Virus record (IMG/VR): IMGVR_UViG_3300048065_000509
Coordinates: 1 to 45,446 of that record
DNA length: 45,446 nucleotides
Origin: a virus
Reading direction: 5' to 3' (one strand)
Under the pieces are notes generated by a model. That model was not told where the DNA came from. It saw only the letters and a list, made by a program, of their open reading frames with translations, and did not search any database. Positions 3,081 through 18,615 of this stretch are shown piece after piece; the stretch's first letter is position 1, and each line of letters starts with the position of its first letter. A program made the position numbers and the translations under genes.

Positions 3081-3119
3081 GGGGGCATGGCGGAATCGGT
3101 AGACGCACCAGACTTAAAA
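3081..3119 (+). other. attP: Probable attP: 5' part of tRNA-Leu(UAA)
   Basis: The sequence from gggggcatgg through the D arm (cggaatcggtagacgca) and the anticodon loop (cttaaaa, anticodon taa) reads as the 5' half of a cyanobacterial tRNA-Leu(UAA). It then diverges, so no complete tRNA is present. It lies just after int. A ~42-bp match to a host tRNA-Leu next to int is established for P-SSP7, so this is most simply the phage attachment core. An imperfect hairpin (ctcag-taag-ctgag inside cccag/ctggg) lies immediately upstream and could be an arm site or int terminator. Confidence 0.75.
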
Positions 3120-8124: not shown

Positions 8125-8233
8125 ACCTAATCCACCTACGGCTGAAGCAATTCAACGTGCACAGTTTGTAGATAAAACATACATCTGGAAAAATGCTGGT
8201 ATTCGACCTGGAGACAGACGGACTACTAAATGA
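8078..8233 (+). CDS. Putative overlapping small protein (51 aa)
   Basis: This ORF starts in the end of the helicase gene and ends within the exonuclease ORF, covering an otherwise unexplained 68-base gap. The product is basic and proline-rich at first (QLPISKPNPPTAEAIQRAQF) and ends GDRRTTK. No family is recognised, and overlap with both neighbours means it may be spurious. Confidence 0.35.
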   Translation: MNQQSKKSSTQLPISKPNPPTAEAIQRAQFVDKTYIWKNAGIRPGDRRTTK

Positions 8234-8708
8234 TCTTACCAAGATCCACTGCCTTGTTATTTATGACAGCGATACTGACACGACCATTGTGTACAACGAT
8301 CAAGGCAACGAAGAACCGATTGTTCGAGGGGTACAACGTTTAGAAGATGCTGATGTAATCGTTGGCCATAACATCATTGGCTTTGATATACCAGCAATCA
8401 GACGAATCTACCCATGGTTCATGCCAACTGCTTTTGTATTAGACACCTTATTGTTGTCACGTCTGTATCACACAGACATCCTTGAGATTGATAAGAAGAG
8501 AGGCGTATCAAACATGCCGCTTCAAACATACGGACGACACAGCCTTGAGTCATACGGCTACAGGTTAGGTGAATACAAAGGTGAGTTTGGCAAGACAACA
8601 GACTGGCAAGACTGGTCTCCAGAAATGGAAACGTATTGCTGTCAAGACGTAAAAGTAACCACCAAATTATGCGACCACTTTCAAAAATACCTGAGTGGGT
8701 ACGACTAG
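8193..8708 (+). CDS. DNA polymerase 3'-5' exonuclease part (split gp5)
   Basis: The 171 residues match only the proofreading domain of T7-type family A polymerase. Exo I is VFDLETDG (DxE), Exo II is VGHNIIGFDIP, Exo III is YCCQDVKVT (YxxxD). The ORF ends SGYD where the homologous protein would continue into the polymerase domain. The polymerase domain follows at once in the -1 frame, and an A5 run (CAAAAAT, about 8681-8687) lies in the overlap. The parts may be separate subunits, a programmed -1 frameshift fusion, or the result of a lost A. Confidence 0.9.
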   Translation: MLVFDLETDGLLNDLTKIHCLVIYDSDTDTTIVYNDQGNEEPIVRGVQRLEDADVIVGHNIIGFDIPAIRRIYPWFMPTAFVLDTLLLSRLYHTDILEIDKKRGVSNMPLQTYGRHSLESYGYRLGEYKGEFGKTTDWQDWSPEMETYCCQDVKVTTKLCDHFQKYLSGYD

Positions 8709-9949
8709 AGCACGAAGTTGCTCAATTATTAACTGAACAAGAACTACATGGATGGTACTTTGATGAACATGCTGCATGGAAACTTGCATCAACTCTCAGA
8801 AAAGAGCTTGAGCAAACTTGTCAACTACTACGTGACAGGCACCCTTTCGTTGCGGGATCAATATTTACTCCTAAGCGAAATAATCGGACCCAAGGCTATG
8901 TCGCTGGCGCTGAAAGTACCCGCTTAAAAGAAACAAATCCCACATCACGAGATCATATTTCATGGATTTTGCAAACGTTCCATGGCTGGAAGCCGACACA
9001 ACTGACAGCTACTGGGAAGCCGATTATCGACGAGATTGTACTGAAGGAGATTGTTGCGTCCGGTGGACCAGCGATTGCTTTGGATTTTCTGAAATGTCTA
9101 GATATTACGAAGAGCTTGGGGATGATCTCCGAAGGCACCAACGCATGGCTCAAGCTATGTACGACTGCTAGTCGGATACATCACCATTGTTCAGTTGCAA
9201 CAAACACGCACAGATGTGCACACCGTAAACCAAACTTAGGCCAGACAAAAAGTGACCCTGAATTTAGAAAACTATTCCAAGCATCCCCTGGTCAAATTAT
9301 GGTGGGTGCCGATCTTAGCGGGATTGAGTTACGCATGCTCGCCCATTACCTTGGACGTTGGTCTTCCGAATTTGGAGATACCCTCCTTACCGGAGACATC
9401 CATCAAGTCAATGCCGATCGAGTTGGAGTCAGTAGGCGACAAATCAAAACCATTAGCTATGCCTTCATCTATGGGGCAGGGAATGAAAAAATCGGTTATT
9501 CCTACGACCCCCTTCTAAGCAGTGCCAAAGCTAAGAAGAAAGGTAAGGAAATTAGAGAAGCATTCGTTTCTGCTATTGATGGACTTGCGGAACTATTGGA
9601 AGCAATCAAAGAGAAAAGTAAAGAGGGTTATATCCGCTCTATTGATGGACGACACATCAAAGTAGATAGTCCACACAAAGCATTGAACTACTTGCTGCAA
9701 TCAGGAGCTGGTGTCATTGCAAAACGATGGATGACCATCAATCACACTCACATTCAAGAACTAGGGTTGTGTGCATCACAACTAGCATTTATACATGACG
9801 AACTACAATTCGAGTGTCACCAAGACCACGCACAAGATTTATCAGCATCCCTGGTACTTAGCAGTGCAGAAGCTGGTGAATACTACAAACTCAGAGTCCC
9901 AATCACAGCAGAAGCCAAAATCGGAGCCAATTGGGCGGAGGTGCATTGA
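8669..9949 (+). CDS. Family A DNA polymerase, polymerase domain (split gp5)
   Basis: The product is 426 residues from ATG 8669. Motif A is GADLSGIELRMLAHYLG, motif B RRQIKTISYAFIYGAG, motif C FIHDELQF. In motif B the residue equivalent to E. coli Pol I Phe762 / T7 Tyr526 is Tyr, a form associated with virulent phages. The protein lacks its own exonuclease, which is in the overlapping upstream ORF. ATG 8669 lies 40 bases inside that ORF. The TGA overlaps the next ATG, with a GGCGGAGG ribosome site for the exonuclease gene inside the last codons. Confidence 0.93.
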   Translation: MRPLSKIPEWVRLEHEVAQLLTEQELHGWYFDEHAAWKLASTLRKELEQTCQLLRDRHPFVAGSIFTPKRNNRTQGYVAGAESTRLKETNPTSRDHISWILQTFHGWKPTQLTATGKPIIDEIVLKEIVASGGPAIALDFLKCLDITKSLGMISEGTNAWLKLCTTASRIHHHCSVATNTHRCAHRKPNLGQTKSDPEFRKLFQASPGQIMVGADLSGIELRMLAHYLGRWSSEFGDTLLTGDIHQVNADRVGVSRRQIKTISYAFIYGAGNEKIGYSYDPLLSSAKAKKKGKEIREAFVSAIDGLAELLEAIKEKSKEGYIRSIDGRHIKVDSPHKALNYLLQSGAGVIAKRWMTINHTHIQELGLCASQLAFIHDELQFECHQDHAQDLSASLVLSSAEAGEYYKLRVPITAEAKIGANWAEVH

Positions 9950-10671
9950 TGAAACTACTCATTGATGCTGATTACATTGTCTACAAGGCATGTGCTGGTG
10001 CTGAAGATGAAATTGATTGGGGTGATGACGTAATTACAGTTGTCAGCCGTTTCTCTGAAGCGATGACAAACGTTGAACGTGATCTTACAAAGATTAAAAG
10101 TGAATTCATGTGGGATACACCTGAAATGATCTTGTTCTTCAGTGACTCTAAGAATTTCAGGAAAAAAATTTACCCGGAATATAAGGGTCATCGAAACAGA
10201 AAGAAGCCCTGTGGCTATCGAAGAGTTATCACAGAATTAGGTAAACGATATGAACTTATCCGCTTACCTGAACTGGAAGCTGACGATGCAATGGGTATCT
10301 ATGCAACAGAACATCCTGGCAACATCATTGTCTCGCCTGACAAGGATATGCGCCAAATCCCTGGCAAGTTATACGACATGAAAGAGACAGTCACTATTGA
10401 ACCCGAAGAGGGTAGACAGTGGCATCTGATTCAGACGTTAGCTGGTGATCAGACTGATGGATACGGTGGCTGCCCTGGCATAGGTGTCAAGCGTGCTGTA
10501 GCTATGTTTGAAGCGGATGGTTACAACTGGGATGTTGTAGTCAAAGCATTTAAAGCCAAAGAACTTGGTGAAGAAGTAGCTCTTATGAATGCACAGCTTG
10601 CAAAGATACTTACTAACAAAGAATACGATGGACAAGTCATTCCCTGGCATCCCGCCACCACCAATAACTGA
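9949..10671 (+). CDS. 5'-3' exonuclease (gp6-like, FEN/PIN family)
   Basis: The 240-residue nuclease begins MKLLIDADYIVYKA with the first metal-binding Asp. It continues with a basic region (KKIYPEYKGHRNRKK), ELEADDAMGI with an acidic metal cluster, VSPDKDMRQIPG, and the H3TH-like GDQTDGYGGCPGIGVKRA. In T7-like phages it removes primers and degrades host DNA. ATG 9949 overlaps the polymerase stop and has a strong GGCGGAGG upstream. Its 3' end overlaps the following small gene by 44 bases. Confidence 0.93.
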   Translation: MKLLIDADYIVYKACAGAEDEIDWGDDVITVVSRFSEAMTNVERDLTKIKSEFMWDTPEMILFFSDSKNFRKKIYPEYKGHRNRKKPCGYRRVITELGKRYELIRLPELEADDAMGIYATEHPGNIIVSPDKDMRQIPGKLYDMKETVTIEPEEGRQWHLIQTLAGDQTDGYGGCPGIGVKRAVAMFEADGYNWDVVVKAFKAKELGEEVALMNAQLAKILTNKEYDGQVIPWHPATTNN

Positions 10672-10891
10672 ACTAACGATGGAGCAAGAATTTAAGCTCC
10701 GTCGAATGGATGATCTACTACCTGAAGCAGACAAGGCAGACATCATTACTTTACTGATGGCATTACAACATCAAAACTTCTGCCTTTGCAATACCGTAAG
10801 CAACTTAGTACAACAATGGCCCACTTCTCACCCGCCTACTACACAAGAGGTTCCATGGAAACGTGGGACTTTATACGAGACCAAGGATTAA
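10628..10891 (+). CDS. Small protein resembling NblA (phycobilisome-degradation adaptor)
   Basis: The 87-residue product has a middle segment LTMEQEFKLRRMDDLL followed, after a short linker, by a helix DKADIITLLMALQHQNFCL. This is the two-helix layout of cyanobacterial NblA, whose first helix typically reads L(S/T)LEQEFKLR. NblA brings phycobilisomes to Clp protease, and nblA is known in several marine cyanophage groups. Here the N-terminus (proline-rich PGIPPPP) and C-terminus extend beyond the usual ~60 residues. ATG 10628 lies inside the exonuclease gene. The call rests on visual pattern only; otherwise it is a conserved hypothetical. Confidence 0.45.
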   Translation: MDKSFPGIPPPPITELTMEQEFKLRRMDDLLPEADKADIITLLMALQHQNFCLCNTVSNLVQQWPTSHPPTTQEVPWKRGTLYETKD

Positions 10892-11097
10892 ACTACCACC
10901 TTGGTTGTGCTCTTAAATATATTGTCCGTGCTGGTCATAAAGACAGCAAAGAGCAGGACTTAAAGAAAGCTATCCACTACCTAGAAAATGAACTCTTACA
11001 TTCACACCAGTCTCCTAGATCAAGCGGAGGAATTTCGTCAAGCTTACTCTTTGGAGACGGGGAGGAATCAGAAGTCAATACAGAAGGCATTGATTGA
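10816..11097 (+). CDS. DUF3310-type protein (putative nucleotide kinase-like)
   Basis: The core METWDFIRDQGLNYHLGCAL followed by KYIVRAGHK...DLKKAIHYLENEL is the signature of the DUF3310/SaV family, small phage proteins predicted to bind nucleotides. The 93-residue product overlaps the previous gene by 76 bases and the next by 110. The overlapped tail (SPRSSGGISSSLLF) looks non-conserved. ATG 10816 is chosen; ATG 10855, directly before the core, is also possible. Confidence 0.7.
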   Translation: MAHFSPAYYTRGSMETWDFIRDQGLNYHLGCALKYIVRAGHKDSKEQDLKKAIHYLENELLHSHQSPRSSGGISSSLLFGDGEESEVNTEGID

Positions 11098-11353
11098 TGA
11101 GGAGTGGAGTGAATTCCACGAGGCATATCACTTTAAGGAAGCAGACGAACAACTAAAAGAACTAGCTGATCTTGTATATGTCTGCTATCAGATGGCAGCT
11201 AGTCAGGAATGGGATCTCGATGAAGCAATGCATCGTGTCCACAAATCAAACATGTCGAAGCTCGGAGAAGACGGTAAGCCCATCTACAGAGCGGACGGGA
11301 AGGTTCTCAAAGGACCTAATTATAAAACACCAACACTTACTGATCTTATTTAA
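10988..11353 (+). CDS. MazG/HisE-like all-alpha NTP pyrophosphohydrolase
   Basis: The 121-residue protein has the acidic helix pairs of this superfamily: ALIDEEWSEFHEA then LKELADLVYVCYQMA, followed by HRVHKSNMSKL and GKVLKGPNYKTP, the usual ending of the phage version. It would hydrolyse nucleoside triphosphates, in cyanophages possibly (p)ppGpp-like or dNTP species. Position just before ribonucleotide reductase fits nucleotide-pool control. Its start overlaps the DUF3310 gene. Confidence 0.8.
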   Translation: MNSYIHTSLLDQAEEFRQAYSLETGRNQKSIQKALIDEEWSEFHEAYHFKEADEQLKELADLVYVCYQMAASQEWDLDEAMHRVHKSNMSKLGEDGKPIYRADGKVLKGPNYKTPTLTDLI

Positions 11354-11356
11354 TCA

Positions 11357-12727
11357 ATGACCACCTCACTTATCTCACGTACTGGACGTGTACAATCTTG
11401 GCTCGACAACCCTGAGTCAAGGCTTCCAGTTAGCTGCACAGTATTTGTAGTACAAGACTCAATGGAGGGTCCTGATGGATTGGAAAAATCGTGGCGCTAT
11501 GTATCATTTGGCCTACGTCATGGAGCAGGAGTTGCGGTCCACTTGTCGGAACTGCGACCCCGCGGTCAAGAAAATGGAAAAGGATTGGTTGCATCTGGAC
11601 CAGTATCTTTCGCGAGAATCTACTCAACGTTAAATGAAGTATTAAGGAGGGGTGGTGTATACAAAAACGGTGCTGTGGTGTGTCACCTGGATCTCAACCA
11701 CGCTGATGCTCTTGAGTTCATTACTACACCACGCTCAGAGTTGCCATGGATCAAACGATGCATCAACATCACAGATGAATGGTGGCAGGATTGTACGTTT
11801 AAGGAACAAGTCTTATTCGGAATCAAGTCAGGTGACATCTGGTTAAACAAATTAAGGTATGACAAAAATGGAGAAAGAATCAGAGGGAACGTATGCCTTG
11901 AGGTGTACTTGCCAAGCCGAGGCACCTGTCTCTTGCAGCATGTCAATCTCGGTGCCTGTGAATTTGACGACATTCCAAGAGCTTTCTCTGAAGGGATGTC
12001 AGAATTGTGCGAACTCCATGGTCGAACTGGCGTTGGCAATTCAGGAGAATATCTCCCAAGTGAAACAGACAGACAAGTCGGACTGGGAGTACTCGGCCTC
12101 GCAAATCTCTTACGGCGGTACGGTGTAACGTATGAACAGTTTGGTGAAGGGCTTCGCTGCTTAAATAGCGGTGAAGTAATCCGTACACCAGCATATGAAC
12201 TAGCAGTACAGCTGAAGCTAGGCATCAGCCTTGCAGCACGTATTGCTAAGACGAACAAGATGGATAGGGCGTTTGCAATTGCCCCTACTGCATCGTGTAG
12301 CTACAGATCAAAAGATCTCGATGGCTTCACATCTACCCCTGAAATTGCACCACCTATCAGCCGTACTGTTGACCGTGATAGCGGTACGTTCGGCGTACAA
12401 ACATATAATTACGGTGATGTTGAGATTGCATCAGAAGTTGGTTGGGATGCCTACAAGGCAGTCGCTGATGGACTGATGACATTGCTCAATAACACAGGGC
12501 TTCTTCATGGATATAGCTTTAACTCTTGGAGTGACGTTGTAACCTACGACAATGAATTCGTGGAAGAGTGGCTACGGTCCCCGCAAACTAGCCTCTATTA
12601 CTCGCTCCAAGTCATGAGCGATACACAAGATAAAACTAATGCATATGCTGCATTGGATGAGTCAGAAGTGGACAGCTATTTAGAGGACATTTTAAATGAA
12701 GAACTTCAATGTGATTGTCAAGAATGA
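11357..12727 (+). CDS. nrdA: Ribonucleotide reductase class I alpha subunit, minimal (NrdA-like)
   Basis: The 456-residue catalytic subunit reduces ribonucleotides to deoxyribonucleotides. C27 (LPVSCTV) and C191 (GTCLLQ) fit the active-site thiol pair. N178-x-C180-x-E182 (NVCLE) is the catalytic loop, PTASCSYRS the phosphate-binding loop, and C452-x-C454 the C-terminal redox pair. There is no N-terminal ATP-cone and the protein is far shorter than E. coli NrdA (761), matching the cyanopodovirus type long mislabelled class II. The beta gene overlaps its stop (ATGA), which supports class I. Confidence 0.9.
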   Translation: MTTSLISRTGRVQSWLDNPESRLPVSCTVFVVQDSMEGPDGLEKSWRYVSFGLRHGAGVAVHLSELRPRGQENGKGLVASGPVSFARIYSTLNEVLRRGGVYKNGAVVCHLDLNHADALEFITTPRSELPWIKRCINITDEWWQDCTFKEQVLFGIKSGDIWLNKLRYDKNGERIRGNVCLEVYLPSRGTCLLQHVNLGACEFDDIPRAFSEGMSELCELHGRTGVGNSGEYLPSETDRQVGLGVLGLANLLRRYGVTYEQFGEGLRCLNSGEVIRTPAYELAVQLKLGISLAARIAKTNKMDRAFAIAPTASCSYRSKDLDGFTSTPEIAPPISRTVDRDSGTFGVQTYNYGDVEIASEVGWDAYKAVADGLMTLLNNTGLLHGYSFNSWSDVVTYDNEFVEEWLRSPQTSLYYSLQVMSDTQDKTNAYAALDESEVDSYLEDILNEELQCDCQE

Positions 12728-16701: not shown

Positions 16702-17043
16702 ATGAAAAAAATTATTGCACTCCTCCCTGCCACTTTGCTGGCTGCAAATCCAGTATTGGCTGGACCTTACGCCAACGTGGAAGTCAACTCCGGATTTTCA
16801 GGATCTAATTACACCGGCTCCGCGACTGATGTACACGTTGGTTATGAAGGTGCTAACTGGTATGTGCAGGGAGGGCCTGCCCTACTGGCTCCTGATGATG
16901 CTGATGGTGACATCGAACTGTCTGGTAAAGCAGGTGGTTCTTATGGCATCAATGATGCACTGTCAGTATATGGAGAGTTCTCTTTTCTCACTGGAGATAC
17001 TAATGGTTATGGGACAAAGGCAGGTCTTAAGTATAGCTTCTGA
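16702..17043 (+). CDS. Secreted outer-membrane beta-barrel-like protein
   Basis: The 113-residue protein has a clear signal peptide (MKKIIALLPATLLAANPVLA, cleavage after ALA). It is followed by alternating strands (YANVEVNSGFSG; VHVGYEGANWYVQGGPAL; YGINDALSVYGEFSFL) and a C-terminal aromatic ending (TKAGLKYSF), the typical outer-membrane beta-signal. It is about half the size of an eight-stranded barrel, so it may multimerise or be a reduced OmpA-like protein. It starts the cassette that includes hli and psbA. The role is unknown; surface remodelling of the infected cell is a guess. Confidence 0.65.
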   Translation: MKKIIALLPATLLAANPVLAGPYANVEVNSGFSGSNYTGSATDVHVGYEGANWYVQGGPALLAPDDADGDIELSGKAGGSYGINDALSVYGEFSFLTGDTNGYGTKAGLKYSF

Positions 17044-17213
17044 TGAACGATACACAGATCTGGCCAACTGAACCGCAAATGTACATTCAAGAAAACGCTG
17101 TGAACCACAACGAAAATGCAGAGAAGCTGAACGGCCGCCTGGCAATGCTGGGTGTCATCGCAGCACTAGGTGCTTATGCACTGACTGGTCAAATCATTCC
17201 CGGAGTCTGGTAA
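17043..17213 (+). CDS. hli: High-light-inducible protein (HLIP)
   Basis: The 56-residue protein carries the chlorophyll-binding helix signature AEKLNGRLAMLGVIAALGAY (ExxNGRxAMxG) followed by ALTGQIIPG. HLIPs bind chlorophyll and carotenoid and protect the photosystem or assembling D1 from excess light. The ATG overlaps the stop of the preceding secreted protein and the TAA overlaps the next ATG, so the cassette is translationally coupled. A cyanobacterial origin is established for phage hli genes. Confidence 0.93.
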   Translation: MNDTQIWPTEPQMYIQENAVNHNENAEKLNGRLAMLGVIAALGAYALTGQIIPGVW

Positions 17214-17519: not shown

Positions 17520-17573
17520 ATGAACTATTACTTAAATGACCGCTGTACTTACAAGACCACAAAAACTAAATAA
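17520..17573 (+). CDS. Possible upstream ORF overlapping psbA start (17 aa)
   Basis: ATG 17520 opens a 17-codon ORF ([17 protein letters not shown]) that overlaps the psbA start at 17536 in another frame. psbA has no visible Shine-Dalgarno, so a uORF could influence its translation. It may be chance. Confidence 0.2.
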
Positions 17574-18615
17574 CTGGGAAGCCTTTTGTAACTGGGTTAC
17601 CTCAACTAACAACCGACTGTATGTTGGTTGGTTCGGAATCCTAATGATTCCTACGCTGCTTGCAGCTACTACCTGTTTCATTATCGCCTTCGTTGGCGCA
17701 CCACCTGTTGATATTGATGGCATTCGTGAACCTGTTGCTGGATCGCTCCTCTATGGAAATAACATTATATCGGGAGCAGTTGTCCCGTCTTCAAATGCAA
17801 TCGGACTGCACTTCTATCCCATCTGGGAAGCAGCCAGTCTCGATGAATGGCTATACAACGGAGGACCATTCCAACTCGTTGTCTTCCACTTCCTTATCGG
17901 TATCTACTCTTACATGGGACGAGAATGGGAACTTAGCTACCGGCTAGGTATGCGCCCATGGATCTTCGTTGCTTACTCAGCACCTGTAGCTGCGGCTAGT
18001 GCTGTCTTCTTGGTATATCCCTTTGGACAAGGTTCTTTCTCAGATGCGATGCCTCTTGGCATTTCCGGCACCTTCAACTACATGTTTGTCTTCCAAGCTG
18101 AACACAATATTCTTATGCATCCTTTTCATATGCTTGGTGTTGCCGGCGTATTTGGTGGGTCTTTGTTCAGTGCTATGCATGGCAGTCTTGTCACCAGTTC
18201 CCTGGTTAGGGAGACGACCGAAACGGTATCTCAGAACTATGGGTATAAGTTTGGGCAAGAAGAAGAAACGTACAACATCGTAGCCGCACATGGTTACTTC
18301 GGACGATTGATCTTTCAATATGCTTCATTTAATAACTCGCGTAGTCTCCACTTTTTCTTGGCTGCATGGCCTGTGCTTGGCATTTGGTTTACAAGCCTGG
18401 GTGTTAGCACTATGGCTTTCAATCTTAACGGATTCAACTTTAATCAATCCATTGTCGATACTGGGAACCACGTTGTCCCTACTTGGGCTGACATACTTAA
18501 CCGTGCGGGACTTGGAATGGAAGTGATGCATGAACGTAATGCACATAACTTCCCACTTGATCTGGCAGCAGCGTCTACCACACAGGTAGCACTGACTGCT
18601 CCTACTATTGGATAA
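17536..18615 (+). CDS. psbA: Photosystem II D1 protein, high-light (Glu130) form
   Basis: The full-length 359-residue D1 maintains photosystem II during infection. All key residues are present: Tyr161 (YZ), Asp170, Glu189, His190, His198, His215, Ser264, His272, His332, Glu333, His337, Asp342 and Ala344. A 15-residue C-terminal extension after Ala344 would be removed by CtpA. Residue 130 is Glu ([10 protein letters not shown]), the high-light D1:2 state, rather than Gln. The gene lies between scaffold and capsid, typical for podoviruses of this group. No frameshift or intron is visible. Confidence 0.99.

Follow-up and report, generated by a model that had tools for sequence, protein, structure and literature searches.

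The window analyzed here, an uncultured virus record of 45,446 bases, contains between its exonuclease and DUF3310 genes an ORF that is very probably a phage nblA gene, whose product would be a two-helix adaptor that delivers the antenna of the host to the Clp protease. In cyanobacteria, NblA brings ClpC to the phycobilisome (PMC7966870, PMC4103541). An earlier note on this DNA had proposed an NblA-like ORF on the forward strand, overlapping the exonuclease gene and carrying the sequence LTMEQEFKLR followed by a second helix, in a genome that also bears psbA and hli. Exactly the same span was recovered by us; the motif is read in the ORF, the second helix is predicted, the exonuclease ORF runs 44 nt into nblA, and psbA and an hli-like gene were both located (Table 1). 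The stop-to-stop frame of nblA also offers an upstream ATG at position 10589. A second overlap, at the 3' end with the DUF3310 gene, was absent from the earlier note.

The genes of the window are arranged in the order integrase, RNA polymerase, primase/helicase, DNA polymerase, exonuclease, nblA, DUF3310, MazG and ribonucleotide reductase, followed by the portal, the hli-like gene, psbA, the capsid, the tail genes and the terminase. By this gene order, the integrase and a putative tRNA-Leu attP, the window is assigned to the T7-like marine cyanophages (Autographiviridae), probably to clade B. Its nearest records are S-SBP1, the uncultured phage S45C4 and S-TIP37; S-TIP37 and S-RIP2 are clade B T7-like cyanophages (PMC9381782). 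The DUF3310 gene is labelled 'nucleotide kinase' in related phages, and the PsbA of the window shares 83-91% identity with cyanobacterial PsbA over nearly its full length. A scan for promoters around nblA gave fewer sites than were found in shuffled sequences, so that no promoter of its own is claimed for this gene. Two other features were observed in the same genome: the DNA polymerase is encoded by two overlapping ORFs in different frames (8193-8708 and 8636-9949), a split gene or a programmed frameshift that is noted for S-TIP37 and P-SSP7 too, and a cyanophage outer-membrane-like beta barrel protein with a signal-like start (16702-17043; PF24653, E 4.7e-40) is encoded immediately before hli.

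The putative attP follows the integrase gene (2077-2997), and its identity was found in one of 201 picocyanobacterial genomes, which has a size of 2.3 Mb and 55% G+C around the site. Sites of this type have been described for P-SSP7 as well as S-TIP37, and they group according to the genus of the host (PMC8776855). Given that the attP-matching genome is of 2.3 Mb, the site suggests as host a Synechococcus, a bacterium that has phycobilisomes, the target of NblA. A comparison of psbA with bacterial genomes picked out no single host.

Table 1. Features of the window discussed in the text (all on the + strand).
Feature	Position	Strand	Basis or remark
Putative attP, 39 bp, after the integrase	3081..3119	+	perfect match to the 5' half of a tRNA-Leu(TAA) gene
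T7-like 5'-3' exonuclease, upstream neighbour	9949..10671	+	PF02739 E 6.7e-12; PHROG 107 E 2.8e-63
nblA (probable)	10628..10891	+	ORF of 87 codons, ATG start, TAA stop; Pfam NblA 25.0-25.5 bits
Exonuclease/nblA overlap, 44 nt	10628..10671	+	ORF coordinates
PPPP, residues 9-12, in conserved GxPPxP before helix 1	10652..10663	+	alignment; HMM alignment to 3CS5
Predicted helix 1, residues 18-33, with EQEFKLR signature	10679..10726	+	AlphaFold2 models
Predicted helix 2, residues 36-63, stops before invariant W64	10733..10816	+	AlphaFold2 models
ATGG, DUF3310 ATG overlapping TGG of NblA W64	10816..10819	+	82 relatives
nblA/DUF3310 overlap, 76 nt	10816..10891	+	nblA frame unselected (ratio 1.1); DUF3310 frame conserved (0.19)
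DUF3310 gene, downstream neighbour	10816..11097	+	PF11753 E 3.6e-13; PHROG 236
MazG-like nucleotide pyrophosphohydrolase	10988..11353	+	PF01503 E 1.8e-10; PHROG 671 E 3e-34
Ribonucleotide reductase	11357..12727	+	PF02867 E 6.2e-18
hli-like gene	17043..17213	+	ENAEKLNGRLAMLG motif; PF00504 E 3.5e-4, slightly below cut-off
psbA (photosystem II D1)	17536..18615	+	matches to phage psbA

In the protein search, residues 15-62 matched the Pfam family NblA (PF04485) with 25.0 bits and an E-value of 2.7e-5, and the DNA-level Pfam search gave 25.5 bits, above the cut-off. The curated cut-off of PF04485 is 25 bits and the single-sequence score sits exactly on it; doubt was therefore warranted, and four further tests were carried out. 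PF04485 was matched by 48 of 49 sequences (the window and environmental contigs, with E-values up to 0.1), the best E-value being 2.6e-9. A profile of the relatives, compared with all PDB chains, recovered all four NblA entries, 3CS5 (E 9.5e-5), 1OJH, 2Q8V and 2QDO; among the nine PDB sequences listed, these four include the top three. When profile was aligned against profile by hhalign, with 15 cyanobacterial NblA sequences on the other side, a probability of 95.9 and an E-value of 6.1e-9 were obtained over 50 columns without gaps, at approximately 22% identity. Lastly, a model restricted to cyanobacterial NblA gave the window protein 18.2 bits, against at most 4.7 bits for its 2,000 shuffles, and all 82 distinct phage relatives reached at least 11.8 bits (median 21.1). 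Because the relatives, the PDB profile, hhalign and the shuffles agree, membership in the NblA family is well supported by these sequence comparisons, as the earlier note had proposed. The protein also matched PHROG 27006 over the whole profile (E 5.2e-23), and an NCBIfam search gave no family for the nblA product.

The likeness to cyanobacterial NblA (Anabaena PCC 7120, 1OJH; S. elongatus PCC 7942, 3CS5) extends to the LSxEQxF start and to the two helices. The signature L[ST]xEQxF is present in the window as ELTMEQEFKLR, aligned to the cyanobacterial ELSLEQQFSIR; among the 82 relatives E19 and Q20 are invariant and F22 is conserved in 90%. In the C-terminal region, NLVQQW aligns to LLKHQW with an invariant W, and the terminal QW is common to Anabaena NblA and the window, whereas helix 2 has diverged and its side chains differ; within the region of helix 2, L46, Q47, Q49, N55, L60 and W64 are invariant in the phage relatives. 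In NblA, a ClpC-binding motif is located near the N terminus and the phycobiliprotein-binding region at the C terminus (PMC4103541).

AlphaFold2, run with a 49-row alignment, predicts two helices, with disorder in the tail beginning at residue 74 (pLDDT under 50); when the core was modelled by itself (residues 9-66), the hairpin was unchanged and had a mean pLDDT of 91.5. This helix-turn-helix hairpin is as expected for NblA, which in cyanobacteria has a helix-loop-helix structure and forms four-helix dimers (PMC7966870). Searches of the PDB with Foldseek and VIA-align, using the full protein and the 58-residue core, returned chance helical matches and no NblA chain; two-helix chains are poor queries. 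The missing Foldseek match, the short sequence and the low identity to cyanobacterial NblA are what could be expected of an unrelated two-helix protein, e.g. an anti-host inhibitor, that had converged on the EQxF pattern. Nevertheless, the profile match is gapless over 50 columns, NblA heads the PDB sequences listed, and the alignment also takes in the PPxP near the N terminus and the final W, so that we consider convergence very unlikely.

The core of nblA is under purifying selection in its own frame. Residues 15-66 show a dN/dS of 0.14 (176 pairs of relatives that are not too distant), the other two frames of the same DNA give pN/pS values of 1.1 and 2.4, and the differences among relatives at codon positions 3, 1 and 2 number 2530, 1130 and 642. 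These values bear on the idea that the ORF is only overprinted between exonuclease and DUF3310, resembling NblA by accident and yielding no protein, as the overlaps on both sides and the lack of annotation in S-TIP37, S-RIP2, S-SBP1 and other phages might lead one to think. However, the core has a segment of about 144 nt (10672-10815) that is free of both neighbours, selection on the core is seen in the nblA frame and the other frames give ratios above 1, the nblA frame is kept in all the full-length relatives examined, and the score with the NblA model is far above that of the shuffles. As an account of the whole ORF it is hardly credible: it is refuted for the core and holds for residues 65-87, a tail that is unselected in the nblA frame.

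The earlier note had stated that the sequence extends beyond ordinary NblA at both ends. The ORF is indeed longer, but neither end adds a new domain. At the N terminus, the motif GxPPxP is conserved (G7 in 98%, P10 in 100% and P12 in 99% of the 82 relatives) and aligns in the HMM alignment to LPPLP of S. elongatus NblA (3CS5); this PPxP, of which PPLP is the S. elongatus counterpart, is thus no departure from the variation already known in NblA. Residues 1-6, inside the exonuclease overlap, are poorly conserved. At the C terminus, the extension is overprinted by DUF3310. In the nblA frame from residue 65 on, dN/dS is 1.1 in the linker and 0.87 in the tail, and a fixed tail stretch of about 39 nt has a pN/pS of 1.1, in contrast with a ratio of 0.19 when this DNA is read in the DUF3310 frame. 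The nblA stop varies within DUF3310: in 38 of 97 sequences it lies 33 nt before that of the window, and in another 38, the window included, at exactly the window's position. The tblastn identity in the tail, which continues even past stop codons, derives from DUF3310. Since the nblA frame is unselected, the DUF3310 frame is conserved and the stop position shifts, the 23 C-terminal residues (65-87) are a by-product of the overlap, and only residues 7-64 or so appear to matter. Cyanobacterial NblA proteins have about 55-65 residues, and the selected core of the 87-residue ORF is near the size of an NblA of about 60 residues. We know of no overlapping gene for cyanobacterial nblA.

The start of DUF3310 coincides with the last residue of this core: the codon of W64, in the C-terminal aligned region, doubles as supplier of the DUF3310 start codon. 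Among the 82 relatives this site reads ATGG in 70, TTGG in 10 and GTGG in 2, and all three variants keep both a possible start codon and a Trp codon. The Trp codon and the DUF3310 start constrain each other at this site, where translation of nblA and DUF3310 is possibly coupled.

In 37 cyanophage records, and likewise in 114 IMG/VR stretches, a homologue of nblA is found at this position, and the overlap with the exonuclease, of 41-146 nt, is present in nearly all relatives; a match in an Achromobacter phage (E 8) was discarded as chance. In the clade B phages S-TIP37, S-RIP2/KBS-P-1A, S-SBP1 and the uncultured S45C4, nblA is likewise placed between exonuclease and DUF3310/MazG, with the same core and overlaps and 66-75% identity to the window in the aligned part; the C terminus of the window protein is longer, given that its stop inside DUF3310 comes 33 nt further on. 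In many records (S-TIP37, S-RIP2, S-SBP1 and others) the ORF is called 'hypothetical' or has no annotation. For instance, no CDS is given over nblA in S-TIP37, yet the family search places NblA at 12521-12661. PHROG 27006, the phage family to which the window gene belongs, is listed as of 'unknown function', and the sequence evidence supports giving it the NblA label. In S-RIP1 (stretch positions 895-1011) only NblA residues 36-67 are matched, in a frame without ATG; the gene looks truncated beside an annotated HNH endonuclease, which suggests disruption by a homing element.

A diverged homologue, below the Pfam threshold, was found in P-SSP7 (PSSP7_019A; stretch 1537-1848), P-SSP2 and NATL1A-7, phages that bear the name of Prochlorococcus or were isolated on it, with 15.7-16.3 bits against the cyanobacterial NblA model; the P-SSP2 record lists Synechococcus WH8017 as host. 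Prochlorococcus lacks nblA and has other antennae instead of phycobilisomes, and the nblA of Synechococcus WH8102 is divergent (PMC7439483). These homologues, in phages whose hosts have no phycobilisomes, show that nblA can persist without its usual target. Removal of the antenna is no explanation for them; infection of Synechococcus as well, or another target of ClpC, are possibilities. Together with the borderline Pfam score, the identity of about 22% and the Foldseek searches, they make up the points against reading the window ORF as a phage nblA.

In accordance with these homologues, the protein could be a descendant of NblA in which the hairpin still feeds ClpC, with a new substrate in place of the phycobilisome, such as a defence protein, free phycoerythrin or a factor of photosystem assembly. 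The divergence of helix 2, where the cyanobacterial QMMxRExxY is replaced by LQxQNFxLxNTVSNL, would agree with such retargeting. On the other hand, the window protein falls in the branch of Synechococcus phages, which has kept its match to NblA, its attP points to Synechococcus as the likely host, and according to the account in PMC9602691 phycobilisomes were lost in S. elongatus through the action of a related NblA from a marine phage; we regard retargeting in this phage as improbable. A broader proposal, in which the podovirus NblA line is a phage-adapted ClpC adaptor with targets beyond the phycobilisome, antenna removal being one use among others, seems to us a speculative and rather doubtful one.

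On the host side, NblA was detected in 27 of 27 other cyanobacterial genomes and in 5 of 300 genomes of the picocyanobacterial family at an E-value of 0.001, two of them above the cut-off; marine hosts therefore carry at most a divergent NblA, and the counts agree with PMC7439483. The donor of the phage nblA was not identified among these 300 genomes. One of the two matches above the cut-off comes from an assembly with a phage-type exonuclease-nblA-DUF3310-MazG cluster (reverse strand, ORFs 1453-1677 and neighbours), which represents either an integrated phage or a contaminating phage contig. At least one weak picocyanobacterial match resembles a divergent host gene, SLSLESNFELERI. Small ORFs with SLSLESNFELERIKRSIDAMDDLELLKHLAKQM were also seen in two picocyanobacterial genomes, in one of them right after a nucleotide-reductase-like gene, and are likely to be divergent host NblA.

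Phage-borne NblA has been described before. The freshwater cyanophages Ma-LMM01, MaMV-DC and PaV-LD, which belong to other phage families, carry it as the window does; the freshwater gene is expressed during infection with loss of phycobilin (PMC9602691, PMC4103541), and in a published tree its branch is separate from the marine podovirus cluster (PMC9602691). As reported in PMC9602691, Nadel et al. 2019 (doi 10.1111/1758-2229.12798) predicted nblA in S-TIM5 and in 14 isolates of cyanopodoviruses, and found a marine phage NblA to be active in S. elongatus PCC 7942; by that account the gene tested came from an uncultured phage, one not known to be the window record. Cyanophage NblA is said to degrade host light-harvesting complexes, and one estimate has phage NblA reducing light capture for photosynthesis in the ocean by as much as 5% (PMC12892361, which for the estimate cites the 2025 study of phage NblA by Nadel et al., Nature 648:434, doi 10.1038/s41586-025-09656-x). 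The nblA of the window is in this sense an expected find that joins the nblA genes already reported in T7-like cyanophages. What seems new is the DUF3310 overlap at the Trp codon, the unselected tail and the equation of PHROG 27006 with NblA, which we found stated in none of the sources compared, a set that does not include the full text of Nadel 2019 and 2025.

Considering the family membership, the predicted hairpin, the selection at protein level and the conserved placement of the gene, we infer by homology with cyanobacterial NblA that the phage protein would dimerize and would bind both the phycobiliproteins of the host phycobilisome and the chaperone ClpC. The antenna would thereby be handed to the Clp protease, with its loss in infected cells; amino acids would be freed and excess light input cut, and in the meantime the phage PsbA and Hli would protect photosystem II. 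The earlier note had drawn this same picture of antenna dismantling beside psbA and hli, and it fits the published work on phage NblA (PMC9602691, PMC12892361). Since nblA sits in the DNA-metabolism block, NblA is probably made at the switch to nucleotide and DNA synthesis.

For experimental work, the overlap analysis indicates that the part of the protein worth testing is approximately residues 7-64, and a deletion of nblA must leave the internal DUF3310 start codon intact. For annotation, PHROG 27006 and many of the unannotated or 'hypothetical' cyanopodovirus ORFs between exonuclease and MazG may be given the name NblA. With the window, a near-complete-looking environmental phage would be added to those able to dismantle the antenna of marine Synechococcus.
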